DNA from: an uncultured Bacteroidota bacterium
GTDB lineage: Bacteria > Bacteroidota > Bacteroidia > Flavobacteriales > Flavobacteriaceae
DNA: 64,000 nt
Reading direction: 5' to 3'
NCBI GenBank assembly: GCA_902626365.1
Contig: CACOFE010000003.1
Span: forward strand, 33,145-97,144
The translations under genes were made by a program, and so were the position numbers. The notes under the pieces were generated by a model. The model made no database searches, was not told where the DNA came from, and saw nothing but the letters and a program-made list of their open reading frames with translations. Of this stretch, positions 1-20,913 are shown piece after piece. Position 1 is the first letter of the stretch. Each line of letters starts with the position of its first letter.

Positions 1-497
1 TAATACATATAGTATGATCCGTCATCATCTTTAAATACTGCAGGATCAATTGAATAACTGCCTTTGATTGGTTCATCTTGTGGAATAAATGGACCATAAG
101 GTTTATCACCTATAGCAACGCCAATTCTAAAAATTCCATCATAATCTTTGGCAGGAAAAAAGAGATAGAACTTTCCATCTTTTTCATTAGCATCGGGGGC
201 CCACATTTGTCTTTCAGCCCATTTAACATCATCAACATGAAGAGCCATTCCATGGTCGGTAATATGACCACCAATATTATCCATTGAAAGAACATGATAA
301 TCCTCCATTGCAAAATGACTGCCCAAATCATCAAAAGCATCACCCGTATCAATGTCATGAGACGGATAAATATAAATTTTCTCGCCAAAAACATGTGCCG
401 AAGGATCAGCAGTATATAAGTGAGTTACAATTGGTTTAGAAATTGCTCTTTTGTTTAAGTCTTCAAAATCTATATGATCTATACTTTCTTCAGGCAT
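1..497 (-). CDS. Partial glycoside hydrolase family 43-like protein (beta-xylosidase/arabinofuranosidase type), 5' part only, truncated by window edge
   Basis: Own reverse-strand translation from ATG at 497: MPEESIDHIDFEDLNKRAISKPIVTHLYTADPSAHVFGEKIYIYPSHDI...DHGMALHVDDVKWAERQMWAPDANEKDGKFYLFFPAKDYDG...SYSIDPAVFKDDDGSYYMY; open to position 1; typical GH43 blade motifs (ADPSAH, MWAPD, SIDPAVFKDDDG). No signal peptide, so probably cytoplasmic. Not in ORF track because it has no stop inside the window. Confidence 0.85.
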   Translation of the reverse strand, partial: MPEESIDHIDFEDLNKRAISKPIVTHLYTADPSAHVFGEKIYIYPSHDIDTGDAFDDLGSHFAMEDYHVLSMDNIGGHITDHGMALHVDDVKWAERQMWAPDANEKDGKFYLFFPAKDYDGIFRIGVAIGDKPYGPFIPQDEPIKGSYSIDPAVFKDDDGSYYMY

Positions 498-508
498 AAT
501 AAATCGAA

Positions 509-1942
509 TTAATCCTTTCTTCTATTCAATAAATCTTGTTCAATTTTATCTTCAAGATTCTTGTCAATGATATAAAATAACAGTAGTCCTGCTGCAAGTA
601 AAAATGGTATTGATGGAAATACACTAACAAGCATTTTAGTTCCTAAAATCGCGGATTCAGTTTGCTCACCAGCACTGTTGGGAATATATCCATAACTTGC
701 TAATATAGATGCTACTAATGCACCCCCAATACTTAAGCCAAGCTTTAGGCCTACCATCATTGCTGAAAAAATTATTGCTGTAGCTCTTCTATTGTTTTTC
801 CACTCTGAATAATCTGCTACATCAGCAATCATAGCCCAGAGCAGTGGTATTGTTATACCATAAAAGAAACCATGAAATATCTGAGCTCCAAAAATCAAAC
901 TAATTGAATCAGGTGAAAGAATATAAAAGACTAAAATAAATAAGGTTGAAATAAATAAAAAGACTGCAAATACATTTCTTTTGCCATACTTATCAGCTAA
1001 CATTTTTGATAAACCAATTCCAATTATCATAAATATAATTCCACCTGCATTAAACAATCCAAAGCCAGCAGAAACAGGATCATTCCCAAAAAAATTAATA
1101 CCAATATTTGATAAAAAATCTATTATTGGAGAGATGAAATCACTCAAAGAATTTTTTGAAACATAGTTCTCAAAATAATAGACATATGCGCCCCCTTTCA
1201 TAGCAAGGGTAGTGAACTGTAAAATGGTAACCGTTAGCATGATAACCCATGGAATATTTTTTACTAAATCTTTCAAATCATCCGATAAACTAGATGATTG
1301 TTCAGGCTTAGGAACAATTCTTTCCTTAGTGGTTATGAATGTGATGAGTAATAAAATAGTTCCTATTACAGCAAGCCATGTCATAGTTATTTCGATCCCA
1401 AGTGCTTTATCTCCATCACCAACATAATTTATAATAGGGAGCATGAAAACCTGAACAAAGAATTGGGCAAACATTACAGCAACAAACCTATAAGCTGAAA
1501 TACTATTTCTCTCTTTCATGTCGCCGGTAATTACTCCACTTAATGCCGAGTACGGAAGATTGCTTCCAGCATATAATAACAATAATAATGTGTAGGTAAC
1601 TACAGCATAAATAACTTTGCCACTGTATGAAAAGTCAGGCGTAGTAAATGCTAGTAAGGATGTAATACCTAAAGGTACCGCAGTCCATAATATCCAGGGT
1701 CTAAACTTTCCCCATTTACTATTTGTTCTATCAGCTAATGCCCCAACTATTGGGTTAAAAGCAAAAGCAGCAACAGTTCCAACGGTAAATATAATTTTAG
1801 TTGCATCATCAGCATTTAATCCATAAATATCAGTGTAGAAATATGCTAAGTATGTGATTAAAGTTTGGAATACAAGATTAGCTGATAAGTCTCCAAGACT
1901 ATATCCAATTTTTTCTTTTATAGAAAGTGGTTGTGTTATCAT
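509..1942 (-). CDS. MFS/GPH-family sugar:cation symporter (MelB/XylP-like)
   Basis: 477 aa, 12-TM-like; N-terminus KEKIGYSLGDLSANLVFQTLITYLAYFYTDIYGL and NPIVGALADRTNSKWGKFRPWILW typical of GPH transporters. Confidence 0.9.
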   Translation of the reverse strand: MITQPLSIKEKIGYSLGDLSANLVFQTLITYLAYFYTDIYGLNADDATKIIFTVGTVAAFAFNPIVGALADRTNSKWGKFRPWILWTAVPLGITSLLAFTTPDFSYSGKVIYAVVTYTLLLLLYAGSNLPYSALSGVITGDMKERNSISAYRFVAVMFAQFFVQVFMLPIINYVGDGDKALGIEITMTWLAVIGTILLLITFITTKERIVPKPEQSSSLSDDLKDLVKNIPWVIMLTVTILQFTTLAMKGGAYVYYFENYVSKNSLSDFISPIIDFLSNIGINFFGNDPVSAGFGLFNAGGIIFMIIGIGLSKMLADKYGKRNVFAVFLFISTLFILVFYILSPDSISLIFGAQIFHGFFYGITIPLLWAMIADVADYSEWKNNRRATAIIFSAMMVGLKLGLSIGGALVASILASYGYIPNSAGEQTESAILGTKMLVSVFPSIPFLLAAGLLLFYIIDKNLEDKIEQDLLNRRKD

Positions 1943-1945: not shown

Positions 1946-3058
1946 TTATTTAATATTTGAAAGATCAATCTCAAGTAGCTCAAAATATGCAGGCTTCTTA
2001 TTGTAGACTCTATCGAATAATAAGGGGTAGTCTGTTCTGCCTCTAATAGGATTTTCATTTCTCCACGTATACTTATCGGTAGTTCCCCAAAAAGTTACCC
2101 TGCTAATTTTATCATGATGTTTCAGAAATAGCTCAAAAATCTCTTTATATCTATTGGTTAATTTTTTCTGGATATTGTGAGGTATTCCCGATTGATATGG
2201 ATCCCATTTTTTATCACCTTCAAATTTTTTAAATTCTTCTCTTGCAATTCCCGCCAACTCATATGGGTTTGGTATTACCGTTATGTCAAGTTCAGTTATC
2301 ATTACATCAACTCCAGTGGCTGCTAGATCAACAATTGTTTCTTCAATTTCTTTAATGCTTGGAAAGTGAAGATCCCAATGAGCTTGGATTCCAACAGCAT
2401 CAATTCTAATTCCTTTTTCTTTTAAAGAATTAATGATTTTAATTGCACCCTTTCTCTTTTTTGGTTTCCAAAGATTATAATCATTATAGGCAAGTTCAAC
2501 ATTTGGATCAGAATCATTTGCATATTGAAATGCTTTTTCAATGTAATCATCCCCAATCATTTCAAGAAATACAGTCTCTCTCAAAGTTCCATCATCATTT
2601 AAGGCTTCGTTTACAACATCCCACATGTCAACTTTTCCTTTGAATCTTGTAACTAGTTGGAATATGTGATTTTTTAAATGTAGATTGAATTTAGCTTTGT
2701 CGTTAATTTCCGAAACATACTCAGGAACTTGATTGTGCCAAACTAAGGCATGGCCCAACAAATACATGTCATTATCTTTAGCAAAATCTGTAATTTTCTG
2801 AGCATTTGAAAATGTAAACTTTGAATACTCTGGATGAGAGTGCATCCACTTCATTGAATTTTCTGGAGTTACAGAACTAAAATCTTCAGAAACAATTTTT
2901 AAAATCTTTTCGTCTTTATCGATAATTTGATAATCCTCCTGATTAATAGTTGCTCCAATTAAAAAGTAATCTGCAAATTTTTCTTTTAAACTTTCTTTTT
3001 CTTGTGAATAAGCAAAGAAAGGTATAGAAGCAAAGAGAAAAATAAATATCTTTTTCAT
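1946..3058 (-). CDS. GH10 endo-1,4-beta-xylanase, secreted
   Basis: 370 aa with signal peptide; GH10 motifs HALVWHNQVPEYV, WDVVNEALNDDG (acid/base Glu), VMITELDI (nucleophile Glu), VTFWGTTDKYTW. Confidence 0.95.
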   Translation of the reverse strand: MKKIFIFLFASIPFFAYSQEKESLKEKFADYFLIGATINQEDYQIIDKDEKILKIVSEDFSSVTPENSMKWMHSHPEYSKFTFSNAQKITDFAKDNDMYLLGHALVWHNQVPEYVSEINDKAKFNLHLKNHIFQLVTRFKGKVDMWDVVNEALNDDGTLRETVFLEMIGDDYIEKAFQYANDSDPNVELAYNDYNLWKPKKRKGAIKIINSLKEKGIRIDAVGIQAHWDLHFPSIKEIEETIVDLAATGVDVMITELDITVIPNPYELAGIAREEFKKFEGDKKWDPYQSGIPHNIQKKLTNRYKEIFELFLKHHDKISRVTFWGTTDKYTWRNENPIRGRTDYPLLFDRVYNKKPAYFELLEIDLSNIK

Positions 3059-3129: not shown

Positions 3130-4866
3130 TTATCTAACAACTAGTTTAGATACTTTACTTTGTCCATTGATTGTAACCTTAAGCATATAGAATCCGCTGT
3201 TGAATGAACTCACATCTAATGTGTTTCCATTAATAACAGTATCCATTACTTTTCTACCAGTTACAGTGAATACTTGGATTTCTTTTGATCCTTGTACCGG
3301 AGATAGAATATTAACGTAGTTACCATCTACTGGGTTAGGATAAACCATCATATCAAGTATTTCATTATCTGCTGTAGAAAGTCCAGCTTGAACGCACACA
3401 TCATCAATATACCAGTCGTCACCGTCATCATTTGTCATAACAAATGCAACATAAATTGGGACTCCGATATAATCAGCTAAGCTAAATTCAATTGATGTGA
3501 ATTCACTTGGCTCAAAATCAGCTTCAGTCCAAGTAGCTATGTCAGTAAAGTCAGCATGTGTTGTTTGACTTACTGTAGAAACTTTTACAGCGTATGTAGA
3601 ACCATAATCCGATCCATAAGCTTGTCTGTGGCTGAATGAAATATGATTATTTGAAGCATCAGGAATAAACATTGGTGTAACTAACCAGTCTTCTGCAAGA
3701 CCACCGGTAACATTTTCATACCTAACGTGAGCTGAATTAGCTCCACTAACTGAATATGTTGAACTAGCTTCCCAGTCATATCCTTCACCAAGGCCATTTT
3801 CGCCTCTGAATGTTGCCCAACCTTCAACTGGGAATGATTCTCCATCAAAATCCTCACACCAGGATCCTTCAAGGGGAGCATCTGAAGGATTAATAGATTC
3901 CATAGCAAATAAAATTTGTTGAATATCCATTGAGCCTGCCGATGCGACAGCTCCATCACCTGGATTTTCAACTAGCTGGAACCACCAGTTTGCTTGAGTC
4001 CCATTCCAATTAGTAAATGCTGATAAATCTACTTCAACTGTTTGAGCTTCAGCGGAATTTGGGGTCATATCAGAAGTTGAAAATTCATTTCCTCCACTTG
4101 GTGATACAAATGTTAATTTATTTTTAGGTGAATTATTTACAAGTGTTACCTGAACATATTTATAAGTATCAGCATCAACACTATAAAGCCCTGTTTGTTC
4201 CAACTTAGGGTAAGGACTTTGGTTTGCTATTTCAAGATGAAGTTCTCCAGCAACTGGCTGGGACATAGTAACACCATTAGCCGTGGTAAATCCTTCAGAA
4301 TCAGAAGTATCATCAAAAGTATAATCAACTCTTGGTGTTGCGGGAATTGATTCAACTATTTCAATATGATCAAATAAAACATCTCCTGCATATACATTGT
4401 TGTTAACACCATTTCCCTGTTTAAATCTAAAGTTAATCGTGTCAACTGTCCCGCTCCAATTTGCATTACTACTCATATTTATATAATGAGTAACAAAATC
4501 TGAATTGTTAGATGAAAGTCCGTCAAAGTTTGTGAAGGCATTACTACCATTCACAGTTGTTATGACTTGTAATTTAGCATTACCTGTCAAATTCTGCATG
4601 GTAATAGCAACATAATTTCCTGCGGATGTATCAATATTAGCTGATGTATTTTTGAAATTTGGATTGGCTGAATCACCATTTCCATCACCATCATTATCCA
4701 CTATAGTGTAAGTAAGATAAGTGTCCCCAACAGCTAAATTAGAATAGTTTTGAGCAACAAACCCATGGTCTGTTCCATTAAAATCCCAAGGCGGACCATC
4801 CTGAGCAAATAAACTTATATTAAAAAACATCAAAAAAGCTACAACAATTGAGTAAAGTTTTTTCAT
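3130..4866 (-). CDS. T9SS-secreted multidomain protein, candidate surface glycan-binding protein (two N-terminal jelly-roll-like modules, cleaved-adhesin/choice-of-anchor-J-like module, type A sorting domain)
   Basis: Signal peptide; CEDFDGESFPVEGW...DWLVTPMF...DGDDWYIDDVCV (choice-of-anchor J); C-terminus VYPNPVDGNYVNI...GFYMLKVTINGQSKVSKLVVR. Confidence 0.75.
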   Translation of the reverse strand: MKKLYSIVVAFLMFFNISLFAQDGPPWDFNGTDHGFVAQNYSNLAVGDTYLTYTIVDNDGDGNGDSANPNFKNTSANIDTSAGNYVAITMQNLTGNAKLQVITTVNGSNAFTNFDGLSSNNSDFVTHYINMSSNANWSGTVDTINFRFKQGNGVNNNVYAGDVLFDHIEIVESIPATPRVDYTFDDTSDSEGFTTANGVTMSQPVAGELHLEIANQSPYPKLEQTGLYSVDADTYKYVQVTLVNNSPKNKLTFVSPSGGNEFSTSDMTPNSAEAQTVEVDLSAFTNWNGTQANWWFQLVENPGDGAVASAGSMDIQQILFAMESINPSDAPLEGSWCEDFDGESFPVEGWATFRGENGLGEGYDWEASSTYSVSGANSAHVRYENVTGGLAEDWLVTPMFIPDASNNHISFSHRQAYGSDYGSTYAVKVSTVSQTTHADFTDIATWTEADFEPSEFTSIEFSLADYIGVPIYVAFVMTNDDGDDWYIDDVCVQAGLSTADNEILDMMVYPNPVDGNYVNILSPVQGSKEIQVFTVTGRKVMDTVINGNTLDVSSFNSGFYMLKVTINGQSKVSKLVVR

Positions 4867-4895: not shown

Positions 4896-5432
4896 TTATA
4901 TTGAGATGGATACATCGTCTAAGAAAAATTCTGTTCCCTCAGTCATGTACCAAAATCTAATTGCTTGGTTTGAACTATCAGATTTTAAACTAAAAGTATG
5001 AGAATATTTAGTCCAATCTTCGGTAAGAATAAAATCCTTTCCTTGATAACTTCCTTGAACATCGGACTGAATAACTAATTTCATTTTTCCCTTTCCGCCC
5101 TTATTCTTCGCATGAAAAGTTATTGTTACCGCATCTCCTTCTTTGCCCTTAAACTTTTGATTGTACTGTGAACTTAAATGAAAACCTTTTTCACCCAGCC
5201 TATGAGTTTCTACTTTAAGGGCCCTTTGACTGCCTGGGTTTGTATCGAAGTCTTCTACAGAAAATGTAGCATCAGCCCCTTTTCGTGTTACGTTATTCCA
5301 CCACCAAAACTTACCCTCAGGGCTTACGCCTTCCAAATTTGAATTCTTTAATTCTAAACTTTTTTGAGAAAACGAATTGGTGTAAAATAGAAATGTAAAT
5401 AGAGCTAAAATAAATTTAATTGTTAGTTTCAT
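4896..5432 (-). CDS. Stand-alone secreted carbohydrate-binding module-like protein (178 aa)
   Basis: Signal peptide plus one jelly-roll-like domain ending FFLDDVSISI; strongly similar by eye to the N-terminal domain of the GH30 protein at 12458-14614. Confidence 0.7.
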   Translation of the reverse strand: MKLTIKFILALFTFLFYTNSFSQKSLELKNSNLEGVSPEGKFWWWNNVTRKGADATFSVEDFDTNPGSQRALKVETHRLGEKGFHLSSQYNQKFKGKEGDAVTITFHAKNKGGKGKMKLVIQSDVQGSYQGKDFILTEDWTKYSHTFSLKSDSSNQAIRFWYMTEGTEFFLDDVSISI

Positions 5433-5457: not shown

Positions 5458-7953
5458 TTATTGTTTTATTAACCTTAAGGTTTTTAATTGCCTGGTATTT
5501 ATATCTTCAATTATTATAAAGTAAATCCCCAAATCAAGATTTGAAATATTGATAGAAATTGAATTATTTTCAATATTATTTATTTGAATGGATTTATAAT
5601 TTTTTCCTAATATGTCATAGATAGAAATATTTTTTTCTGAATAAATATTATTAATACTGACAATGTTTTCTGCAGGATTTGGAGATAAATATATATTTTC
5701 AATATAGTTTTCCGAAATGGATAATGGATCGAAAACCGTAACCTCCACCTGACTACTTGTAGAATTTCCAGAATAATCAGAGGCTGTAAAAGTAACTAGG
5801 TATATGCCTGTTGTTGATGTATCTACATTATGAGAAACATCGTAGCTAACATTACCATCACAATTATCTGTTACCGTTGGCGGTTCGATATCATCTACAT
5901 CAAATGTCGAATCTATCTCATACTCATAATTACATCCTGGTCCTCCACAATCTGATAATTCTATTACAGGCGGAGTCGTATCATTTGCACATTCATTAAA
6001 ACTAAACTCATATGCTCCGATATCAACTATATCTCCAGAATTTTCAAAATCAACCTCAGGAGAGCCTTGAGTAACAAGTGAAAAATCATCAATATAATAG
6101 TCAGCTCCAACACCGCCTTGAACCGGTGGTCCTTTCACATACAAAAAGAAATTATTAGAAATATTGTGAGTAAAATCAGCAGTTAATAAAGTCCATTGTT
6201 GATCTGAAGCATCAATAGGCTCAGTTAAATTATAATACTCGTTTTGATCTGTATCCTTTATAGTTAATTGAGAGGTGCCTGTTTCTCCCTCAGCTAATTT
6301 TACCCAAACATAAAATGTATATGTCTCACCTTGATCTAATAAATTGTTTAATACAATTCTAGGGCTATGCCAATTAGCTGTCCTGTCTGTTGTAAATAAA
6401 CTTCTATCGCCAGACAATGATTGATCAGATGTTGTTTCAATTGTGGACCCAAATGCGGTCCATCCGCCAGTTGCATTTTCAAAGCTTGTGGATGCAATTG
6501 CGCTGCCCACAACCGGTCTTGGGTTTCCTTCTATATCATGAGTAGGGCTGTAACTTGGGTTTCCAGCATTTATTGCTGGAGACCCTTCAGTAAGTGAAAA
6601 ATCAGTTCCTTCAATAGTCAATGGGCCATCGACAGTTTCAGGTGCTGAAGTAAACATAGGATCTACATTGATAAGGTTATTGCTTTCAGTAGCCGGCCAT
6701 GCATAGGTACCATTTACAATTATATTGTCAACGGCAACTCTCGTGCCGTATACATTATTTAACTGAAGGGCTGAAAACTCATTATCTCTAGTTACTATTA
6801 TATTATTTACAACAGTTGCATTTAACACATGGTTTGCTTTTATCCCGCCTACTTTTTGTCCTCTATGTGCTGGATTACCTTCAGCTTCAGAGATGTCTTG
6901 TATAATTTCATGGACACCATTATAGTAAAGCGTATTGTTTTGATAAATTGCCGAGGCAGAGTGTGAATGGTCAAAATTAATTCCATTTTTACCATTATTT
7001 AAACATAAGTTATTTTCAAATAAGAAAGTTCCGTTATAGTCAGGATCACTTCTTGTTACATATATTCCTTGACCATCCCATATAGATTGAAAATTTGCTG
7101 TTCCATAATTTGGATTATTATTACCTGAATTATCTGGAAGTTGAGTCACATAAAATCGAATTCTATTCCAATTATTATAAACAATATTTCCACGAATTAT
7201 CATTTTAATATCATTAGTATTATCACCTGAAACCGCAACAGATTCAGCCAAAACAATTGCACTGGAAGCTGAGGAAGTCCACCAGTTAGAGTTATAAACT
7301 ATATTGTTTTCTATTAATATATGATCGCTGTCATTGAATCTAATTGCAGAACCACAAGTGTCATGTACAATATTATTTCTTATTATGATATTGTGGTGAG
7401 CTCCGTAGCCTCCCCAAATTCCTTTTCCTCCAAAATAAGAATGGTTATAATTTGTGGAATCATCTTCATCTTCGGCCATCTCAATTTTATAATTTCTGTC
7501 TGCCTCTGCCATTTCATAATCAATGTCTTGTGCTGGCCCTTCAACCTCAAATCCCTGGACAATTATATAATTCATATTATTAGAAATAACTATACCACCT
7601 CTTCCATCAAATTGAATTTTGGGTGTATGTCCTGGGTAATTTCTTAATGTAATATATGCACCTTCAGCCCCTGATTTATTTATAGTAACCACGTGTGGAT
7701 TATCCATGTTCGTATTTGTTGAAGGGTCAACAGTACCATAATTTGCGTTTTGATAAATACCATCCATAACATATACTGTTCCACCAGCACTTACCATTGA
7801 AATTCCTTTATTTATGGTCTTAAAAGGAGACTCAATTGTTCCTGAATTATTGTCTGAACCATTTGAATCAGAAACATAGAAGTCCTGTGCTGTCACCAAC
7901 TGAATACTTAAAAAGAAAAAAAGAAAAAATATATATGTTTTGAATATTGTCAT
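5458..7953 (-). CDS. T9SS-secreted right-handed parallel beta-helix protein (DUF1565/choice-of-anchor-Q type) with inserted CBM22/CBM4_9-like domain, Ig/HYR-like domain and sorting domain
   Basis: DFYVSDSNGSDNNSGTIESPFKTINKGI and repeated beta-helix rungs (NNIVHDTCGSAIRFNDSDHILIENNIVYNS); SFENATGGWTAFGS...YYIDDFSLV; DIVDIGAYEF; C-terminal LSPNPAENIVSI...IFIIIEDINTRQLKTLRLIKQ type sorting signal. Confidence 0.8.
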   Translation of the reverse strand: MTIFKTYIFFLFFFLSIQLVTAQDFYVSDSNGSDNNSGTIESPFKTINKGISMVSAGGTVYVMDGIYQNANYGTVDPSTNTNMDNPHVVTINKSGAEGAYITLRNYPGHTPKIQFDGRGGIVISNNMNYIIVQGFEVEGPAQDIDYEMAEADRNYKIEMAEDEDDSTNYNHSYFGGKGIWGGYGAHHNIIIRNNIVHDTCGSAIRFNDSDHILIENNIVYNSNWWTSSASSAIVLAESVAVSGDNTNDIKMIIRGNIVYNNWNRIRFYVTQLPDNSGNNNPNYGTANFQSIWDGQGIYVTRSDPDYNGTFLFENNLCLNNGKNGINFDHSHSASAIYQNNTLYYNGVHEIIQDISEAEGNPAHRGQKVGGIKANHVLNATVVNNIIVTRDNEFSALQLNNVYGTRVAVDNIIVNGTYAWPATESNNLINVDPMFTSAPETVDGPLTIEGTDFSLTEGSPAINAGNPSYSPTHDIEGNPRPVVGSAIASTSFENATGGWTAFGSTIETTSDQSLSGDRSLFTTDRTANWHSPRIVLNNLLDQGETYTFYVWVKLAEGETGTSQLTIKDTDQNEYYNLTEPIDASDQQWTLLTADFTHNISNNFFLYVKGPPVQGGVGADYYIDDFSLVTQGSPEVDFENSGDIVDIGAYEFSFNECANDTTPPVIELSDCGGPGCNYEYEIDSTFDVDDIEPPTVTDNCDGNVSYDVSHNVDTSTTGIYLVTFTASDYSGNSTSSQVEVTVFDPLSISENYIENIYLSPNPAENIVSINNIYSEKNISIYDILGKNYKSIQINNIENNSISINISNLDLGIYFIIIEDINTRQLKTLRLIKQ

Positions 7954-7956: not shown

Positions 7957-9396
7957 TTAATTTGATTGATTTTGAAAAGGGTCATCATTTACATAATTTC
8001 TCATTTCTTCTAATTTAATACTATATTTTTTAACTAACTCCTTATTTTCGGGTAGTTTCGAAATATCTATATTTTGCTTTTTATCGTTTTTCATGTCATA
8101 AAGCATATTTCCTAAATATTTTTCTCCTATTACAAATTCAGTGTATGAATAGTTTTTGTCTATAACTGCTTCACCCTGCTTATATCTTGTATAAATCTCA
8201 TCTTTTAAAATAGTTTTTGGGTTTTTAAGAACTGGTGTTAAGCTTTGTCCCTGTATGTAATTTGGTGGTTTTATTCCCGCAAGTTCACAAAGCGTTGGAT
8301 ATATATCAACTAACTCTGTGAAAGAATCTGAATTGTCTTTCGCGCTATATTTTGGAGAAGATATAATCAACGGAATTTGGACTGCTTCGTAAAAAGTACT
8401 ATGCTTACACCAGAAGCCATGTTCACCCAAGAAGTATCCGTGATCACTCCATAAAATTATTGTTGTATTTTCTCTTAATCCAGCTTCTTCTAATCCTTCA
8501 ATTAATTTTCCAATCATTGCATCCATGTATGAAACACTGGCATAATAACCATGAATCAAATCCTTTGATAATTCATCGTCAAGTAGACCTTCTGCGGGAA
8601 TTCCAAGATAATTTTTTCTTAATTCAGCTGAATTATGCTGTGCTTCAATTGCTATGTCAGGTGAATTTAAGGGTTGATATAAGTTGTCTGCTAATTTAAT
8701 TTTATCATGGTCATACATATCCCAATATTTTTTGGGTTGTATAAAAGGAAGGTGTGGAGAAACATATCCGATAGCCATAAAAAAAGGTTTTCCATTGCTA
8801 CTAAACTCATTAAATTTTTTAATGGCTTTAAGTGTAATTTTTCCATCATTATACGCATAGTCATCTACATCTGGATATTCAACAATGGGATTTTTCTTTC
8901 CGTACTCACCTGTTTCGGCATTGTCTCTTAATCTAATAGATTCGGGATCTTGAAAATCAGCCTGATCAGCACCTCCATCTTTCTCAGTCCAATGTTGTGC
9001 AAAGTCATCGTTATGATGATAAATTTTTCCATATGAAATAGTTTCATATCCGTTCTCCTTAAAAATCTGATTTAGTGGAATTGCATGTGGAGCATCAACT
9101 GATGCTCTTGTAGAGAAGTCATTGAACCTTTTCTCACTAGGTCTAACACCGGTCATAATACTTGCTCTGCTTGCGCCACATACTGCTATGTTTGTAAAAG
9201 CATTATTAAATTGTACACCCTCCGATGCTAACTTATCCATGTAAGGGGTAATCATTGTTTCCTCTTCATAATTATATGAGTTCATGGTTGGTCTTAAGTC
9301 ATCAATTGAAATAAAAAGTATATTGTGTTTTTGTTCAACTTTATTATTGCATGAAATTAGAAATACTCCTAAAATGATTACTAAAATTTTTTTCAT
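7957..9396 (-). CDS. S1-family sulfatase lipoprotein (iduronate-2-sulfatase-like)
   Basis: NILFISIDDLRPTMNSY; formylglycine motif C-G-A-S-R in NIAVCGASRASIMTGVRPS; WSDHGYFLGEHGFWCKHS; lipobox LISC. Confidence 0.92.
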   Translation of the reverse strand: MKKILVIILGVFLISCNNKVEQKHNILFISIDDLRPTMNSYNYEEETMITPYMDKLASEGVQFNNAFTNIAVCGASRASIMTGVRPSEKRFNDFSTRASVDAPHAIPLNQIFKENGYETISYGKIYHHNDDFAQHWTEKDGGADQADFQDPESIRLRDNAETGEYGKKNPIVEYPDVDDYAYNDGKITLKAIKKFNEFSSNGKPFFMAIGYVSPHLPFIQPKKYWDMYDHDKIKLADNLYQPLNSPDIAIEAQHNSAELRKNYLGIPAEGLLDDELSKDLIHGYYASVSYMDAMIGKLIEGLEEAGLRENTTIILWSDHGYFLGEHGFWCKHSTFYEAVQIPLIISSPKYSAKDNSDSFTELVDIYPTLCELAGIKPPNYIQGQSLTPVLKNPKTILKDEIYTRYKQGEAVIDKNYSYTEFVIGEKYLGNMLYDMKNDKKQNIDISKLPENKELVKKYSIKLEEMRNYVNDDPFQNQSN

Positions 9397-9403
9397 TATA
9401 AAT

Positions 9404-11059: not shown

Positions 11060-11060
11060 G

Positions 11061-12461
11061 CTAATAATGGAGTTTAACATAATCGTCATCATTAAGTTTA
11101 CCAATTAAATCATCTGGAACGTTGTTCCATTTAGACTTTTTATCCAAAGGATGAAGAGTAGGCTTCAATACTGAAATTGGATTGTCTAAAAGAAAATCCT
11201 CTTGACTTTTCATCCAATTTTCAAGAGCAACTGACAGCCTGTTTCTTATTTGTTTGTATTTAGGATTGTCTATTAGATTTACTTTTTGATATGGATCTTT
11301 TTCCAAGTCATATAATTCTTCATAAGGAACATTTGGAAACGATTCAGCTCCAATTTTAGCAAATTCATTTATAACTGGGTTGTTGCCTAAGTTTGAATTA
11401 ACAACTTCAACAGAATTAAAGTTTCTTATTAGCTTATACCTGTTACCTCTTATCATTCTTGATGGAAATATTTTACATTCTCTTATGTTTTGTCTTGTCG
11501 AAACCCCAAAAACATAATCATGAATTTTCATCTTACTTCCATTTAAAGTCTCAAGAAAACTCTTTCCATCTATTTCGCTTGGAATTTCAGTATTGGAAAC
11601 TTCTAATATAGTGGGCAAAACATCAACAAGGGTCAACAATGTTTCAGATTTAGTGTTTGGCTTAATTTTTCCAGGCCACCTAACAATAAATGGCACTCGC
11701 AATCCCTGCTCTTTTAAACTCCACTTGCCACTTAAGCCGTGGTCTGATGCATAAATAAACATTGTATTTTCTTTAAGGCCATAATTATCAACCATATTTA
11801 AAACTTGCCCTAGTTGATCATTATCATCTTGAATATTTTGATAATAACCTGGCTTGTGATTTCCTATATAAGATGGGTCGTATGGTAATTTAAAAATATC
11901 TGCTTTACTATAATTTGATGTTTGTGGATATGGGCCATGTGGATAATCTGATGCAATAATTAAACAAAAAGGGTTGTTTACATTTTTTAGGTAATCATCA
12001 ATTTGGTCAAGAGGTAAGTACCTATTATTAATTTTTGGAAAATAATGAGTCCAGTCAAATACTTTGTTTGGTTTAACATGGCTTTTTCCTGCTAAAACTA
12101 CTTCATAACCTGATTCCTTTAATAATGATGTGATGCTTTTAATATCAGGTTTAACACCAATATGATTAGCCATACATCCGTTTTTCACAGGATACATTCC
12201 TGTAAAAATTTGAGATCTACTAGGGGCGCATATTGCCTGACCTGTGTAAAAGTTTGAAAACTTCATGCCTTGGCTAGCAAGAAGATCAGCATTACTCGTT
12301 TGAACATTTGGGTTTCCATACACCCCATAATCTAGTAAATCCTGATCATCAGAAAGATAAAAAACTATGTTAGGTGTTTTTGGTTCTTGCTGAGCATAAA
12401 AGGGGTTGAAATACAATAAAGATATTAGGAGAATATAATAAGTAAGTCTGTTTTTTCTCAT
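11061..12461 (-). CDS. S1-family sulfatase (heparan N-sulfatase-like subfamily), secreted
   Basis: NIVFYLSDDQDLLDYGVYGN; AICAPSRSQIFTGMYPVKNG; YASDHGLSGKWSLKEQGLRVPFIVRWPGK; ATGA overlap with upstream GH30 gene. Confidence 0.92.
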   Translation of the reverse strand: MRKNRLTYYILLISLLYFNPFYAQQEPKTPNIVFYLSDDQDLLDYGVYGNPNVQTSNADLLASQGMKFSNFYTGQAICAPSRSQIFTGMYPVKNGCMANHIGVKPDIKSITSLLKESGYEVVLAGKSHVKPNKVFDWTHYFPKINNRYLPLDQIDDYLKNVNNPFCLIIASDYPHGPYPQTSNYSKADIFKLPYDPSYIGNHKPGYYQNIQDDNDQLGQVLNMVDNYGLKENTMFIYASDHGLSGKWSLKEQGLRVPFIVRWPGKIKPNTKSETLLTLVDVLPTILEVSNTEIPSEIDGKSFLETLNGSKMKIHDYVFGVSTRQNIRECKIFPSRMIRGNRYKLIRNFNSVEVVNSNLGNNPVINEFAKIGAESFPNVPYEELYDLEKDPYQKVNLIDNPKYKQIRNRLSVALENWMKSQEDFLLDNPISVLKPTLHPLDKKSKWNNVPDDLIGKLNDDDYVKLHY

Positions 12462-14614
12462 TGCTTAATTATCTTTTTAGTCGTTGTCTTATGATTAAAT
12501 GTGGATGTAATATTGAGTAAATATGTGCCGTGTTCTAAAGTTGATATATCAATTATAACTTCTTTATTATTACCAAACCTTTCAATTAATTTTTGACCCT
12601 GCAAATTAAAAATCTTAATATTATAATTTGAATAATCAGGTAGAATCAAATTGAGTTGATCTTCTGCTGGATTAGGGAATAACTCAACTTGAAAATCATT
12701 ATTATTTACATAATTAAACTCACTGCTAGAAAGAGACTCGTCAATATCAAAGACTAGTGAAGTTAGAGATAGTTCGGGCAGAGTAGCTGTAAAATATCTA
12801 TTATAATAATCTATTTGATTTATGCCCAACGATGAAAACTCCTCAGAATCATTATTAGTAGTTAAAAAAGTTTCCACTGATGTTGCGCCAAGCGGAACAT
12901 CTATTGAAAAATCTTTTTCATTTCCCTCATTAAATATTTGAACTATTACTTTAGATTCATCATCTGAAATAAAACCCCCAACATAAACTCCGTTTTCGTC
13001 GGTGGAATTTGAACTTATCAAACTATAGCCTTTCTTAACAAGGTTTGTAAAATGCTTAAATGAATAGTATCTTTTTGGTAAAATTATTTCACCTGTAGGG
13101 GTCCACGCAACTAAACTAGAATAACCATTGTTATCAGCTTCCTCATAAAATAAGTGTAGCATATAAGCAGTAACTCCACCTTCATTAAACCCTCTTATTA
13201 TCCACTTAATATAATTTGCTGCATCTGTCATTGATTGATCTGTACTATTGAGATTAGCAGATTCTGTTACCCATACTGGTTTACCATTAGCCGCTACTTT
13301 TAATGCATTCCAATTAGCATTATGATTTGGGTCTGCATAAGTATGGGTGCCGACAATGTCAATAGCAGCTTCAACAGCTGAATTTTCAAACATTGTGTTA
13401 ATATAATTTGTAGCAGAGGTTCCCGAATTTTGAGATTCAACTCTAAAGCATTCGGGTGAAACTATATTAATATGATCCAAGCCAGAATTTGATAACCTAG
13501 CATTTAAGTTTATTAATATACTTGATAATTCTGAAGGTGTGGTATTCATTGACTCGTATGAAACCTCATAATCAGGCTCATTTGTAGGAGAAATTGCAGT
13601 GACTTCAATTCCATATCTAGACTCCATACCATTTAAAAATGCAACAAGAAATTCACTAAATTCAGACTCTCCTCCAGATATTAAAGTTCCTCCATTATCA
13701 TGCTGACCATTAGTCTTTAACCATCCAGGAGCGCTATTACAATTTCCAATAATATGATCAAAGCCATTGATACTTAAGTCAAAGGCATTTTGTAGAGCTT
13801 CACCAACATAACGAGTTCTCCAAATATTAGGATCACTGTCATATCTTGTCCAATCAAGCTGTGATTCGTCTAAGTCGTAAGGATCATCATTATCATTTTC
13901 AGGTTCTAAATCATGATATACAAAAAAGCGAATCATATTAACCTCTAGGTCACTAAAACAATATTCCTCAATCTGCTCTCTAAAAGAATCATTTAACACA
14001 TATAATTGTTCAGTTCTCCTTTTAATTCCAGCCCCAAAACCATCAACTATTTGCAATTTTTCATTAGGTGCAAAAGTGATTCTATCACCAGGAGAAATAC
14101 TTACTTCGTCTAAGAAATATGTAACATCGGACTGCATATACCAAAACCGAACCCTATTGTTATCACTAGAGTGCTCAACGGTAAAGGTGTGACTATATCT
14201 TTGCCATTCATTTGTAATCCAAATATTTTGACCTTGATAACTTCCGGAAACCTCTGATTGAAAAACAAGTTTCATTTGTCTGGAGTCAGCTCCTTCAACT
14301 TTTGCATAAAAAGTAACGGTATACTTTTGGCCGGCAATCACTTGAAATGGATATTCGCTTTTTGAGCTAACATGCCATCCATTTGTGCCAAGTGAGTGTA
14401 CTTCACACTTCAAGGCTTTAGTACTTCCTTCAACTAAATCATCAGTTGCAATTGAATATGTTGCATCGCCCCCTTCGTTGGCTTGATGACTCCAATATTG
14501 AAAATCATTATTTTCAATATCTTCTAAAAAACCATTAGCAAGAGGAAGTTGATTCTGTGATATCGACGGATACCAAAATAAATTAAGTAATATTATTAAT
14601 ACTAATTTCCTCAC
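12458..14614 (-). CDS. GH30-family glycosidase (xylanase/glucuronoxylanase-like) with N-terminal CBM-like domain and T9SS sorting domain
   Basis: VDGFGAGIKRRTEQL; NCNSAPGWLKTNGQ; AISPTNEPDYEVSYES (acid/base); GKPVWVTESANL (nucleophile); C-terminal ELFPNPAEDQLNLILPDYSNYNIKIFNLQGQKLIERF...HKTTTKKIIKQ. Confidence 0.88.
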   Translation of the reverse strand: MRKLVLIILLNLFWYPSISQNQLPLANGFLEDIENNDFQYWSHQANEGGDATYSIATDDLVEGSTKALKCEVHSLGTNGWHVSSKSEYPFQVIAGQKYTVTFYAKVEGADSRQMKLVFQSEVSGSYQGQNIWITNEWQRYSHTFTVEHSSDNNRVRFWYMQSDVTYFLDEVSISPGDRITFAPNEKLQIVDGFGAGIKRRTEQLYVLNDSFREQIEEYCFSDLEVNMIRFFVYHDLEPENDNDDPYDLDESQLDWTRYDSDPNIWRTRYVGEALQNAFDLSINGFDHIIGNCNSAPGWLKTNGQHDNGGTLISGGESEFSEFLVAFLNGMESRYGIEVTAISPTNEPDYEVSYESMNTTPSELSSILINLNARLSNSGLDHINIVSPECFRVESQNSGTSATNYINTMFENSAVEAAIDIVGTHTYADPNHNANWNALKVAANGKPVWVTESANLNSTDQSMTDAANYIKWIIRGFNEGGVTAYMLHLFYEEADNNGYSSLVAWTPTGEIILPKRYYSFKHFTNLVKKGYSLISSNSTDENGVYVGGFISDDESKVIVQIFNEGNEKDFSIDVPLGATSVETFLTTNNDSEEFSSLGINQIDYYNRYFTATLPELSLTSLVFDIDESLSSSEFNYVNNNDFQVELFPNPAEDQLNLILPDYSNYNIKIFNLQGQKLIERFGNNKEVIIDISTLEHGTYLLNITSTFNHKTTTKKIIKQ

Positions 14615-14628
14615 TCTTATAAATTATA

Positions 14629-14661
14629 ATGCTACCACTAATAATTTACTAATGGCAGCAT
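14629..14661 (-). other. Stem-loop downstream of susD (possible attenuator/mRNA-stabilising hairpin)
   Basis: ATGCTACCA/TGGCAGCAT inverted repeat, one G-U pair on the minus strand; no strong U tract follows. Confidence 0.45.
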
Positions 14662-14677
14662 ATTGTAAATTTAATTT

Positions 14678-16201
14678 TTAGTCAATTAAATCATTGGTAT
14701 TGATTTCAATTAACGGAATCGGTAATGACATTACTTGAGCCTCATCAGTACTCAATGTTAGGTCAACAGAAGGGTTGTGGATAGGATTATTGTTGTGGAA
14801 TAAAATCGTTTTATTTAAAAAATAATCGAACCCTCTTCTTCTATTGTTGTGAGCGTCTTCGCCTTCACCTAACATTTCAAATCTATATTCATACATTACT
14901 GCCTCTCTAAACTCATCTTGAGTTCCAAAATAAGCACCTTGCGGGCTCATTCCCACTCTACTTAAAAGCTCTGTAATAAATCCTAATTGTTGCCCATTAT
15001 CTAATTCATTAGAAATTTCGGCCAACATTATTAATACTTCACCATACCTGTATATAATTACATTTTGATCTCCATATTGATTGCTGTGTTGTGTGTCCTT
15101 TTCAGTGAATTTAAAAAAGTATGGATGTGCTTTTGAAAAATTTGGCCTACCTGGATTTGAAGGATAGACAGTTATTAGATTGCCATTGTCTGCTCTATTA
15201 TAACTATGCAAATAGGTTCCTTCTAATCTAGGATCATTTGGATATGTCGAAGCATGGTGGTCATGAACATCTGCGCTAACTCTTAACCATCCAAAATGCT
15301 GTCCTAATTTATATTTCCAAGGGGTAAAGTTTCTTCCCATCTGTGAGTTAGCTGCATCTTGACTAATTTGTAATTCCCATATTGACTCAGGTGAATTTTC
15401 ATTAGTATCTGTAAATAAACTGCTGTAGTCAGCAACCAAACTATATTGACCATAAACCTGCATTGCTTGATCATAGGCTAATTGCCAATAATCCATTTCA
15501 CTTACTCCAGCAGCTCTTAAATCTGGATTAGTAGCTAGTGTCATATAAACTTTTGCTAATAACATATTAGCAGCATACTGTTTAGGATATCCTGTTCCAA
15601 AATTACCATTCATTAGAGAAGCTGCCATTTCAGCGTCAGCAATTATTTGCGCATAAACATCTTTTGACGGAGAAGTTGCTAAATGTAAATTTTCATTGTT
15701 AGGTAATGACAACCAAAGTGGGATATCGCCCCAAAGTCTAGTCAATGAAAAATATGACCATGCCCTAACAAAATATGCTTGACCCGCAATATCGTTGAAG
15801 CCAGATTCATCTGAAGTTGAAGGCTCTATAACAGTTACCACATTTTGTATCGCGCCATTACATCTTGCGATTACAGAATATAATCCTCCCCACATTGCCT
15901 CCGAGTCAGCATCATAAGTTGGCTTAAGTGAAAAAAGGTTTGCATTATTTATGTTGTTTACATTATTGCCGCCATTTTTTCCTGCAGTAAATAATCCAGA
16001 AAATCCATTGATTGCAAATATTCTTCTTTCTTGCGCATTGTAGCTAGTCAATGCCTGGTAGATCCCATCTAATGCGCCTTTTGCAACATTTATATCAGTG
16101 TATACCGCTTCAGAATCTAAAAATATAGGATCTTCATCAAGGTCACATGACATTGAGAATAACCCAATTATAGCTAATAATATTATTTTAAAATTTTTCA
16201 T
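14678..16201 (-). CDS. susD: SusD/RagB family starch/glycan-binding lipoprotein
   Basis: Lipoprotein signal LFSMSCDLDEDP; SusD features YNAQERR, GQAYFVRAWSYFSLTRLWGDIPL, RRRGFDYF. Confidence 0.95.
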   Translation of the reverse strand: MKNFKIILLAIIGLFSMSCDLDEDPIFLDSEAVYTDINVAKGALDGIYQALTSYNAQERRIFAINGFSGLFTAGKNGGNNVNNINNANLFSLKPTYDADSEAMWGGLYSVIARCNGAIQNVVTVIEPSTSDESGFNDIAGQAYFVRAWSYFSLTRLWGDIPLWLSLPNNENLHLATSPSKDVYAQIIADAEMAASLMNGNFGTGYPKQYAANMLLAKVYMTLATNPDLRAAGVSEMDYWQLAYDQAMQVYGQYSLVADYSSLFTDTNENSPESIWELQISQDAANSQMGRNFTPWKYKLGQHFGWLRVSADVHDHHASTYPNDPRLEGTYLHSYNRADNGNLITVYPSNPGRPNFSKAHPYFFKFTEKDTQHSNQYGDQNVIIYRYGEVLIMLAEISNELDNGQQLGFITELLSRVGMSPQGAYFGTQDEFREAVMYEYRFEMLGEGEDAHNNRRRGFDYFLNKTILFHNNNPIHNPSVDLTLSTDEAQVMSLPIPLIEINTNDLID

Positions 16202-16230
16202 AATTAAAGAATTTAGTTTTTTTAATTTTT

Positions 16231-19200
16231 TTAAAATCCAACGTTAAGCCCTACAATAAATGTTCTTGCATTTGCTCGACCATTCCAATCAACTCCATTT
16301 ATTAAACCATTATAAAGGAAGCTTGAAATTTCAGGGTCATATCCTGAGTAGTCTGTCCAAGTAAGTAAATTTTGTCCGGCTATAAATAATTTTAAATTAC
16401 TGATTGAATCATTATTATTTACGTCAAAGTCATAACTAACAGTTAAATTACTTAACCTCAAATAGCTTCCATCCTCAATAATTCTATCAGTCATTGCTGG
16501 TTGTCCATTAGTTGAATAACCAATTCTTGGGTAGGTGTTTGTTTGGGCGTCAGGTCTCCAAGCATTATAATAAGCATCGGGTGCTATATTTAAATATGTT
16601 AAGCCCTCTGCATTATCTAATTGTAGTAGATTACCATTAGCTATATCATTACCATAAACACCATTAAATAGAATACTCGCTGTTAGTCTTTTGTAGGTTA
16701 GGTTAAAATTAAATCCATAAATAAAATCAGGGTTTGGATTACCGATGAAAGTTCTGTCATTTAAGTCAATTATTCCGTCTCCATTTTGATCAACAATTCG
16801 AACATCACCGGGAACAGCAGTTGTTCCAAAAACATCTGGTAAAATATCTCCTGTTTGGTAAATTCCGTCTGTTTCTAAACCATAAAATAAACTTGTTTCT
16901 TCACCTTCAACAAATACATTTGCTGGATACCTAAATAAATTACTTCTAGTGACCTCAGATCCAAAATAGAATCTTCTTTCTTCTGCTATTCCATCAACAT
17001 AAAACTCATCCAAAGGTTGTGAAGATAAATCAGTTATTTTTGTTTTATTAAAACCAATATTTCCTCCCATTGTTAGCTGTAAATCATTGCCAGAAATTAG
17101 ATCCATGTTTAATGAAATTTCCAGTCCCTTGTTTGTTATTTCTCCTTGGTTAACCAGAATATTAGAAAAACCTGACGATGTTGGAATACTAACTCTTTGA
17201 AGAAGGTCTTTAGTTACCTTTTCATAAATATCAACTGTACCTGTTATTTTTTTATTATTTGTAGCAAAGTCAGCCCCAAAATTTACCTGCTCTGTTGTTT
17301 CCCAAGTTAAATCAGGATTTGCAACATTTTGTAAAGCAATTGGAACATTTGTTCCTCCGTCAGAATTTCCGTATAAATTTGGTGAAACCCCGTAATTAGA
17401 TAAAGTTCCATAGGATCCGATTCCATGATTACCAATTTGACCCCAACCAGCTCTTAACTTAAGTTCTTCAAATAACTTTAAGTCATTGTTCTGATGAACA
17501 TTCCATGCTAGTGCAAAAGACGGGAAAAAACCATAACGATTATTTTGAGCAAACTTTGAAACACCATCTTTTCTAAACGTTGCTGTTAAGATATATGTGT
17601 TATCATAAGTATAATTAAATCTTCCTAATAAAGAGAAAATTTGCTGATCGCCCTTAATGTAGGTTAGTGGTCTTGTTATAACCTGACCATAGGCAGGGTT
17701 TTGTGTTGTAAATTGTGTTGTAACAAAATCCTCAACAGCATAAATATTATTAGACACCTTTCTTACGTCATAAGTGACACCAAGTACACTATTAATCCTA
17801 TGCTTTCTTTTTAAAGTTCTATTAAACCTTAAAAAATTATTCACTTGAAAAGATGAATTATTCAGTCCCGTAATTTGCAATGATCCGTTAGCATTGTTTC
17901 CTTGCCATGTGGTTGTTCCAAAAAATCTTCTTCTTTCTTTATTTCGAATATTACCGCCAACTTTAACCTGATATCTTAAACCTTGTACCGGTAATTTATA
18001 TGTTAATGCAAGGTTACCAATATACCTGCTTTCTTTGGAAATATCTTCAAAATCATTTATCCATGCATAAGGATTAGAAATGTCTAAATCTTCACCAAAA
18101 TCTTCAAACTCTTCTGTAATGATAGGCCTAAATGAAATTGCTTGTTTAATAAAGCTTTGATTTGATCCACCCAATAAATCACCACTTTCAGCGAAATTTG
18201 TTGAACTAATATAACCACTCATTCTTGCTTCAAGTATTAACTTATCGTTTAAATCCTGATTGAAATTTATTCTCATATCACCACTTTGAAAAGATGATGT
18301 AGGAACAATACCTTCTTGATCATCAAATCCCGCAGAGATATAGTAGTTTCCATTGTCAGTTCCTCCAGAAACAGAACCTCCAACTTTTCTGCTAATACCA
18401 TTTCGATAGATTTCATCCTGCCAATGATAAGAACGGGCTGGGATGCCTGAAATAGTACCATCCGATTCAACACCATAAATTGCGTAATCATCATCTACAA
18501 AATATCTTGGAGCTAAACCATTGTTTGCCTGTACTTCATTTGCGTAAGCAGCAAAACCATAAGGATCTAAAACATCATATTTTTTTGACATGACTCTAAC
18601 CGAAGTATTTGAAAAGGTTTCGATTTTAACTTTTCCGCTCTTACCTTTTTTTGTGGTTATTAACACAACTCCATTAGCACCTCTGGAACCATAGATTGCA
18701 GTTGCTGACGCATCTTTTAAAACCTGAATACTTTCAATATCTCTTGGATTAATGCCATTTAAACCATTTTGGCTTTCTTGGCCTAAATTTCCTACCCCTG
18801 CTGGTAACACATCTTCCCCGGCAGATGAAATAATTACGCCATCTACAACATATAATGGTTCGTTATTACCTCTCAAACTATTTGTTCCTCTAATTTTAAC
18901 ACTTATTCCAGCGCCTGGCGTAGCAGAATTTTGAACTACTTGAACACCTGCGGCTCTACCCTGCAATAATTGATCAATAGAGTTAGATTGATTTGCAACT
19001 TCTTCCTCGACCTCGACCTGAGACAATGAACCTGTTAAATCTTTTTTCAATACCGATCCATAGCCTATTACTACAACTTCCTCAAGCTGCTCAAGATCTG
19101 GTATCATCATAATACTAATATTATCTGAGGACGAAACATCAACCTCCTGAGTTGTGTAGCCTAAATAAGAAAATATCAAGACCTTTTCTTTATCAGATGG

Positions 19201-19380
19201 AATTGCGATTGAATAGTTTCCATCAAAGTCTGTCAAAGCTCCAATATTAGAGTTCTGAACGGTGATATTCACCCCCACTAGTGGAAGATTATTTTCATCA
19301 TTAACAGTTCCCGAAATCGTTTTCGTTTGTGAGAAAACTAAAATTGGGAAAAGAATAAATACTACAAGTAAGTTTTTCAT
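16231..19380 (-). CDS. susC: SusC/RagA family TonB-linked outer membrane protein
   Basis: Carboxypeptidase-like N-terminal domain TISGTVNDENNLPLVGVNITVQ, plug PLYVVDGVIIS, DASATAIYGSRGANGVVLITTKKG; start trimmed to MKNLLVVF at 19380. Confidence 0.96.
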   Translation of the reverse strand: MKNLLVVFILFPILVFSQTKTISGTVNDENNLPLVGVNITVQNSNIGALTDFDGNYSIAIPSDKEKVLIFSYLGYTTQEVDVSSSDNISIMMIPDLEQLEEVVVIGYGSVLKKDLTGSLSQVEVEEEVANQSNSIDQLLQGRAAGVQVVQNSATPGAGISVKIRGTNSLRGNNEPLYVVDGVIISSAGEDVLPAGVGNLGQESQNGLNGINPRDIESIQVLKDASATAIYGSRGANGVVLITTKKGKSGKVKIETFSNTSVRVMSKKYDVLDPYGFAAYANEVQANNGLAPRYFVDDDYAIYGVESDGTISGIPARSYHWQDEIYRNGISRKVGGSVSGGTDNGNYYISAGFDDQEGIVPTSSFQSGDMRINFNQDLNDKLILEARMSGYISSTNFAESGDLLGGSNQSFIKQAISFRPIITEEFEDFGEDLDISNPYAWINDFEDISKESRYIGNLALTYKLPVQGLRYQVKVGGNIRNKERRRFFGTTTWQGNNANGSLQITGLNNSSFQVNNFLRFNRTLKRKHRINSVLGVTYDVRKVSNNIYAVEDFVTTQFTTQNPAYGQVITRPLTYIKGDQQIFSLLGRFNYTYDNTYILTATFRKDGVSKFAQNNRYGFFPSFALAWNVHQNNDLKLFEELKLRAGWGQIGNHGIGSYGTLSNYGVSPNLYGNSDGGTNVPIALQNVANPDLTWETTEQVNFGADFATNNKKITGTVDIYEKVTKDLLQRVSIPTSSGFSNILVNQGEITNKGLEISLNMDLISGNDLQLTMGGNIGFNKTKITDLSSQPLDEFYVDGIAEERRFYFGSEVTRSNLFRYPANVFVEGEETSLFYGLETDGIYQTGDILPDVFGTTAVPGDVRIVDQNGDGIIDLNDRTFIGNPNPDFIYGFNFNLTYKRLTASILFNGVYGNDIANGNLLQLDNAEGLTYLNIAPDAYYNAWRPDAQTNTYPRIGYSTNGQPAMTDRIIEDGSYLRLSNLTVSYDFDVNNNDSISNLKLFIAGQNLLTWTDYSGYDPEISSFLYNGLINGVDWNGRANARTFIVGLNVGF

Positions 19381-19605
19381 GATTAGTTTATTTCTGTTAT
19401 TAAATATAATGGCTAAATATAACACTATAGCTTATTTTAGAAAAGGTGTTTGTAAATAATACTGTAAATTTTTGATGTTTTAATATTTTTATAGCTCAAA
19501 TGCTGCAATATTCATAAGTTTTTATAGAATAATTTGTCAATTTTCTCACGAAGCATTCATTAAAAAATCCTTCGCATGCATAGTATTTTTTTTTATATTC
19601 GAATC

Positions 19606-20913
19606 ATGAAAAAAAATAGTAGCTACTTCTTATTTATTCTATGCTCTTTATTTTTTATAAATCCAATTGAGGCGCAAATCAATTTACCTATAGATTTTGA
19701 GAATGAGCAAATTACTAATGATGATATTATTCATTTTAATGGTGGCTCAGGATATGTTGTGTATAATCCTCAAATCGATAATGACAACCCAAGTGAATAT
19801 GTTGGTGTAATCATAAGAGATGGGGGTGATATTTGGGCGGGAACCTATATTGAACTTGATAGTTATTTAGACTTTTCAACCAATACTACGTTAAACATGC
19901 GTGTTCTTTCACCCTACCCAGGTTTATTGGTCAAGTTTAAAATTGAAGGTGATCAAGGAGCTTTTCCCTCTGAACCAGCAACAGAAAGGGATAGTTATAC
20001 AACTAAGACTAATGAGTGGGAAATACTATCATGGGATTTCTCTGGCGAACCTTCAAACACATATAGAAAGCTTGTTTTAATGTTTGATTTTGGAAATGTT
20101 GGTGACGGTACTGCCAACTCTACATTTTATTATGATGATATTTATCAAACTGACCCAAGTGGAGGTCTTAGTCAAATGGATTTACCAGTTACCTTTGAAG
20201 ATCCTGGTGTATATTATGTATTGACAGACTTTGGAGGGAACGGTCCTTCAACAATTTTAGAAACAGTTGACGGCAATTACGCAAGAGTAGAAAAAAATAG
20301 CGGCGCTGAAACATGGGCTGGAGTTACAATCGGTTCTGGAGCTGGATTTTTGAACGATATTCCAATTACGAATAACGATAAAAAAATGTTTGTACATGTT
20401 TATGTCTCTGGCACAACTCAAACTGGGATTCCTATAAAATTAAAAATCGAAAATTCACAGGACCCTACTCAATCCGTTGAAACGGACACCTATACGACAG
20501 TTGCTGGGGAATGGGAAATAATGGAGTTTGACTTTTCAAATGAGTCAGAAGGAACAGCTGCACTTAACACAAATTATGTTTTTGACATGGCCTCTATATT
20601 TTTTGATTTTGGATCTACTGGAAATCAAAATACGGTATATTATTTTGACAATGTTTCATTTGGCTCTCCGCTTAATGTTGATGAAAGCTTATTTTTATCC
20701 TATAGAGTTTATCCGAACCCATTTACAGAAATAATTAATATTTTTGGAATTGAAGGGGCTGAAATCATTGTTGTTAATGATATTCTTGGAAAGGAGATGT
20801 TTAGAGGAGTTGGGGTTAGAAAAATTAATTTATCAAATTATCAAAAAGGAACATATTTCTTGACCGTTACAAAAAATACACTAAGTAGTACTTTTAAAAT
20901 CATAAAAAAATAA
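19606..20913 (+). CDS. T9SS-secreted protein with two tandem jelly-roll-like domains (candidate glycan-binding protein), divergent from susC
   Basis: Start moved to MKKNSSYF at 19606; repeats LPIDFENE...FYYDDIYQ and LPVTFEDPG...YYFDNVSFG; C-terminus YRVYPNPFTEIINIFGIEGAEIIVVNDILGKEM...TFKIIKK. Confidence 0.75.
   Translation: MKKNSSYFLFILCSLFFINPIEAQINLPIDFENEQITNDDIIHFNGGSGYVVYNPQIDNDNPSEYVGVIIRDGGDIWAGTYIELDSYLDFSTNTTLNMRVLSPYPGLLVKFKIEGDQGAFPSEPATERDSYTTKTNEWEILSWDFSGEPSNTYRKLVLMFDFGNVGDGTANSTFYYDDIYQTDPSGGLSQMDLPVTFEDPGVYYVLTDFGGNGPSTILETVDGNYARVEKNSGAETWAGVTIGSGAGFLNDIPITNNDKKMFVHVYVSGTTQTGIPIKLKIENSQDPTQSVETDTYTTVAGEWEIMEFDFSNESEGTAALNTNYVFDMASIFFDFGSTGNQNTVYYFDNVSFGSPLNVDESLFLSYRVYPNPFTEIINIFGIEGAEIIVVNDILGKEMFRGVGVRKINLSNYQKGTYFLTVTKNTLSSTFKIIKK

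Follow-up and report, generated by a model that had tools for sequence, protein, structure and literature searches.

A conserved PUL predicted to act on 2-O-sulfated xylan in an uncultured member of the Flavobacteriaceae

The occurrence of xylanase-type genes and three sulfatase genes within a single PUL has led us to wonder which polysaccharide is degraded by the products of this locus and at which position its sulfate groups would be removed. The window, that is the whole stretch of 64,000 nucleotides analysed here, corresponds to bases 33145-97144 of contig C3 in an assembly of 1.30 Mb and 63 contigs, estimated to be 68% complete. The locus lies at the left edge of the window, and the 33 kb located leftward on contig C3 were examined too.

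Gene content of the locus and of its left flank

A co-oriented block of genes extends on the minus strand from window position 19425 to position 1, from susC to GH43, and encodes a SusC, a SusD, a GH30, three intact S1 sulfatases, a beta-helix protein with CBM22, a CBM-only protein, a T9SS protein with an anchor-J domain, a GH10, a GPH symporter and a GH43 (Table 1). ORF coordinates and domain matches located every gene named by the sequence-only reading at the position it had given, and the co-orientation it described was borne out, its range taking in beyond susC one divergent T9SS gene on the plus strand. The claim that all three sulfatases are lipoproteins stands for sulfatases A and B, which possess a lipobox, and not for sulfatase C, which has an ordinary signal peptide; lipoboxes and signal peptides of these enzymes were called by eye.

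Table 1. Features of the PUL and its surroundings (window positions unless preceded by C3)
Feature	Position	Strand	Basis and remarks
SusC/RagA-type TonB-dependent transporter	16231..19425	minus	TIGR04056, 835.7 bits; conserved synteny
SusD-like glycan-binding lipoprotein	14678..16201	minus	lipobox MSC by eye; weak NF033072 match (44.9 bits, below cut-off); synteny with SusC
GH30-type glycoside hydrolase, N-terminal CBM4/9/22-like domain, C-terminal T9SS sorting domain	12458..14614	minus	Pfam/NCBIfam domains; PDB match
S1 sulfatase C, CAPSR, signal peptide by eye	11061..12461	minus	closest solved enzyme S1_8A, only 114 bits
S1 sulfatase B, CAPSR, lipoprotein (FYSC)	9404..11104	minus	S1_8; true start probably inside TTG ORF
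S1 sulfatase A, CGASR, lipoprotein (lipobox LISC)	7957..9396	minus	S1_7-like; nearest solved 6hhm
Right-handed beta-helix + CBM22 + Ig-like + T9SS	5458..7953	minus	domain and fold matches
Stand-alone secreted CBM-like domain	4896..5432	minus	weak PF02018 match, below cut-off
Putative glycan-binding surface protein secreted by T9SS, choice-of-anchor J domain	3130..4866	minus	domain matches
GH10 endo-beta-1,4-xylanase, exported	1946..3058	minus	PF00331, 328.9 bits; 4k68, E 5.4e-90
GPH-family glycoside/pentoside:cation symporter	509..1942	minus	TIGR00792, 329 bits
GH43 without signal peptide	1..497 (whole gene C3:32601-33641, 346 aa)	minus	PF04616; runs off the left edge of the window
Divergent T9SS protein	19576..20913	plus	occupies the place of the HTCS regulator in G047
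Formylglycine-generating enzyme (FGE)	C3:22463-23515, 9.6 kb left of the window		PF03781 fold, 223 bits

Among solved structures, the GH30 is best matched by AcXbh30A (7n6h, E 2e-20), followed by other GH30 xylanases, and its catalytic glutamates (NEP and VTE, E346 and E451) are invariant in 13 aligned sequences. Its score falls below the XynC cut-off, and the enzyme could act on a substrate other than xylan. Just after the start of its catalytic domain lies a basic stretch, GFGAGIKRRTE, found unchanged in 13 of the 13 aligned sequences; that this stretch helps to recognise sulfate is no more than a guess. The CBM-only protein shares 43% identity with the N-terminal domain of the GH30. As for the GH43, whose family is certain, the closest solved structure is 5glk (E 7.5e-156), followed by the beta-xylosidases 4mlg and 6xn0.

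The left flank on contig C3 comprises, in this order, a GH2 mannosidase-type gene, a GH43, a GH3, a GH53, the FGE, a xylulokinase, a xylose isomerase, a sodium:solute symporter, an esterase-like alpha/beta hydrolase, a fourth S1 sulfatase, a second GH10 and the remainder of the GH43 of the PUL. The sequence-only reading is literally right that no sulfatase maturase is encoded in the window, but an FGE is encoded 9.6 kb beyond its left edge, also on contig C3. This protein aligns with the bacterial FGE 6s07 (209 bits) with both active-site cysteines in register (GGSFLCHDSYC versus GGSFLCHESYC; CxxxxC) and the genome contains no other strong match; an FGE with the CHDSYC motif was recovered in all four genomes searched. 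Judged by these sequence features, it is a genuine FGE. The PUL and its left flank hold all four sulfatases found in the assembly. Neither GH67 nor HTCS was found in the assembly.

The fourth sulfatase (C3:28890-30794) and the second GH10 (C3:31265-32473) are separate, divergent genes here, and in G043 an ORF of 878 aa (L018 14553-17189) spans both sulfatase and GH10 domains. Farther into the window lie genes for a protein of 341 aa that combines YadA head repeats with a Peptidase_S74 (endosialidase chaperone) domain at its C-terminus (38663-39688) and for a 581-aa protein with an Endonuclease_1 domain (60660-62405).

Conservation of gene order and divergence along the locus

Among 151 genomes sampled from the family, 4 carry an orthologue of the GH30, and orthologues are also found on 18 public contigs, mostly of uncultured Bacteroidetes isolates; the set of about 20 genomes considered here consists of these 18 public loci, G056 being one of them, plus G043 and G047. 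As far as contigs allow, the order GH30, sulfatases C, B and A and beta-helix gene is unchanged throughout, SusC-SusD stands ahead of the GH30 in all but G043, in which the pair is not adjacent, and GH10, GPH symporter and GH43 come next wherever the contig is long enough. Directly downstream of GH43, G043 carries XylB, XylA and an SSS symporter, and G047 carries XylB, after which the contig ends. In G043, the PUL is adjoined by the other published pattern, made of a sulfatase-GH10 fusion, a GH3 and two sulfatases. Purifying selection acts strongly on all seven core genes tested, with dN/dS values of 0.02-0.13 (0.05-0.13 for the sulfatases). With dN/dS this low and a gene order shared by about 20 genomes, in which protein identity falls to about 50%, the block is not a chance assembly of genes.

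Divergence is uneven along the PUL when window positions 7957-19425 are compared with L020, L026 and L028: relative to L020, dS reaches 1.34 for SusC and 0.90 for SusD, but 0.22-0.54 for the sulfatases, and in L028 the SusD is only 73% identical and sulfatases A and B are 93-94% identical. This pattern suggests recombination inside the locus.

The sequence-only reading was also literally right that no HTCS/SusR-type regulator lies in the window, and no Y_Y_Y (HTCS) protein was detected in the whole source assembly or in that of its congener (68% and 86% complete, respectively). An HTCS of 1377-1381 aa adjoins the PUL in G047 and G043, beside susC in the former (L015, 887-5020) and beside GH30 in the latter (L018, 4095-8240), and the place beside susC is held in the source genus by the T9SS gene. 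It is likely that the HTCS was lost in the source genus.

Sulfatase specificity and the predicted substrate

Sulfatases bear the signature C-x-[PA]-x-R, which CGASR, CAPSR and CAPSR fit. Described from the outset as three full sulfatases, the enzymes do have intact motifs, which are invariant in the alignments of their orthologues together with the other catalytic residues looked for. Subfamilies were assigned here through the nearest solved relatives. Sulfatase A is 42% identical (172/408, E 1.3e-88) to 6hhm, that is P18_S1_7, an ulvan sulfatase of F. agariphila reported to remove xylose 2-sulfate (PMC9096561). Sulfatase B is 35% identical (154/442, E 5.6e-72) to S1_8A (9bb9), and a search with its profile brings only S1_8A/B/C chains of the lambda-carrageenan cascade below E 1e-60. 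Members of S1_8 are 2-O (or N) sulfohydrolases, with xylose 2-sulfate among their targets (PMC12549532), and P32_S1_8 of Formosa agariphila is reported as a xylose-2-sulfatase (PMC9096561). Two reviews, one of them PMC9096561, assign endo and exo action to the S1_7 and S1_8 xylose sulfatases in opposite ways, the sugar being xylose in both. Subfamily membership does not by itself identify the sugar, since S1_7 also includes a kappa-carrageenan galactose-4-sulfatase (PMC9096561) and lambda-carrageenan is the substrate of the closest solved S1_8 enzymes (PMC12549532). A partial check indicated nonetheless that the subfamilies do not match unrelated substrates only, one enzyme being nearest to an S1_7 xylose-2-sulfatase and another to S1_8. 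Sulfatase A is predicted to be a xylose-2-sulfate sulfatase and sulfatase B an exo 2-O-sulfohydrolase; with an S1_7 relative such as 6hhm and the 2-O/N-sulfohydrolases of S1_8, 2-O-sulfated xylose becomes the specific prediction. Sulfatase C has no close solved or characterised relative; its nearest homologue on a plasmid (Persicobacter, 45%) was considered as a clue to its substrate and discarded, belonging to a different sulfatase cluster with no GH10 or GH30 match.

Taken together with the GH10, the GH30, the xylan-type CBM22 and the xylose pathway, the S1_7 and S1_8 matches make 2-O-sulfated beta-1,4-xylan the best guess, and we infer with good confidence that the PUL serves the degradation of a beta-1,4-xylan carrying 2-O-sulfated xylose, the sulfate position, the localisation of the enzymes and the order of the steps being part of the same prediction. 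At the cell surface, the GH30 delivered by T9SS would act as endo-enzyme on the polymer held by CBM22-type binding proteins, and sulfated oligosaccharides would enter through SusC/D. The S1 sulfatases, two of them lipoproteins, would then remove sulfate after maturation by the FGE, the S1_7-like and S1_8 enzymes at O2 of xylose and the third at the same or another position. The chains would be shortened by a periplasmic GH10, small xylo-oligosaccharides would reach the cytoplasm by means of the GPH symporter, and the signal-less GH43 would free xylose for xylose isomerase and xylulokinase. A marine sulfated xylan, as originally proposed for this DNA, is thus supported and agrees with the published prediction for a PUL of such composition. 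The glucuronoxylan variant of that proposal found no support: GH67 was not found in any of the four PUL-carrying genomes searched, two of which are 99% complete, and this speaks against a GH67-type glucuronoxylan.

The CBM22 of the beta-helix protein is clear, with the xylan-binding CBM22 of Xyn10C as best match, and the counterpart gene in the published PUL was annotated as PL9 with CBM22 (Krueger et al. 2019, PMC6794258). A short stretch at the N-terminus matches the PL9 Pfam model, and Pel9A (1ru4) is among the weak fold matches (E 1.2e-5, TMt 0.49), a mere hint given a low-confidence model (pLDDT 60.7). The region of the Pel9A-type motif ADGF...DDG[WY]D, present in the PF22842 relatives examined from the same family, is absent from the protein and from three orthologues aligned, and other motifs (DGQGxYVTRSD, NNGKNGINFD and HRGQ) show no variation across 13 aligned sequences. 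On sequence grounds, the published annotation as PL9 is accordingly doubtful; the protein may be a divergent lyase, and we would suggest, quite tentatively, that it is not a pectate-type PL9 lyase and represents either a class of enzymes not described so far or a binding protein at the cell surface, dedicated to sulfated xylan.

If this protein were an active lyase, the target could be a xylan- or xyloglucan-like polymer with uronic acid in its backbone, as the PL9 annotation, the Pel9A fold match and the short Pfam match might indicate; yet the motif of the PF22842 relatives is missing, and none of the four genomes contains a GH88/105 for unsaturated products or a GH67, so that we regard such a polymer as unlikely. 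The lyase-like character of the protein, the kinship of sulfatase A with an ulvan sulfatase and the presence of xylose 2-sulfate in ulvan might equally evoke ulvan or an ulvan-like green-algal polymer, in which the sulfatases would act on xylose 2-sulfate of a xylorhamno-uronan and the beta-helix protein would be a lyase. However, neither a GH78-type rhamnosidase nor a GH88/105 was found in the four PUL-carrying genomes, a xylan backbone is indicated by two GH10 genes, the GH30 and the CBM22, and the Pel9A-type motif is lacking, all of which leaves ulvan a slim chance. It is generally known of xylan PULs that xylanase genes alone suffice for plain xylan, and one may thus imagine an ordinary PUL for unsulfated xylan into which unrelated sulfatases were inserted. 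In about 20 genomes, however, the three sulfatases occupy a fixed position, in fixed order, between the GH30 and the beta-helix gene, at dN/dS of 0.05-0.13, and a fortuitous insertion is hardly credible. A beta-1,4-xylan with 2-O-sulfated xylose remains our preferred substrate.

Relation to known PULs

That major bloom bacteria feed on sulfated xylans is a prediction rather than a biochemically proven fact, and no characterised enzyme of such a PUL type was found in the papers searched. The gene cluster described here turns this into a testable prediction, namely that sulfatases A and B, after maturation by the FGE of contig C3, remove 2-O-sulfate from xylose. The present analysis adds the FGE and a xylose pathway alongside the PUL, the conserved gene order and purifying selection, the prediction of 2-O-sulfated xylose, the HTCS in two relatives and the doubt about the PL9 label.

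By its composition and gene order, the locus is a well-conserved member of a PUL type already published, itself a prediction. The second conserved pattern of "sulfated xylan/xylose-rich" PULs of marine Bacteroidetes consists of GH30, three sulfatases, PL9 with CBM22, GH10, GH43 subfamily 1 and SusC/D, and was reported from North Sea bloom MAGs of Formosa, Aurantivirga and Polaribacter (Krueger et al. 2019, PMC6794258). GH30, three sulfatases, GH10 and the SusC/SusD pair (SusD by its weak match and position) are all found here, as are a GH43, closest to solved beta-xylosidases, and the CBM22; a PL9-like fold is among the weak matches of a low-confidence model, and the Pel9A-type motif is absent. 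The present locus differs in belonging to another genus, in its additional CBM-only gene and T9SS protein, and in that no HTCS was found. In contrast to the first pattern of the same study (GH10-sulfatase fusion, GH3 and two more sulfatases), the fourth sulfatase and the second GH10 are here adjacent, separate genes. Public relatives of the source genus are mostly uncultured Bacteroidetes isolates with AG- and AH- names, and close orthologues on public contigs of such isolates and of MAGs point to a trait that extends beyond the North Sea clades of the original description.

PUL136 of Formosa sp. Hel3_A1_48 (Kappelmann et al. 2019, PMC6298971), with SusC/D relatives that were expressed during the bloom of 2009, is likewise a predicted sulfated beta-xylan PUL of a marine flavobacterium. 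The ulvan PUL of Formosa agariphila resembles the present one in combining S1_7 and S1_8 sulfatases, P18_S1_7 and P32_S1_8 both being reported to act on xylose 2-sulfate (PMC9096561); yet it relies on ulvan lyases, GH105 and GH78, whereas here GH88/105 and GH78 were not found and GH10, GH30 and CBM22 are central.
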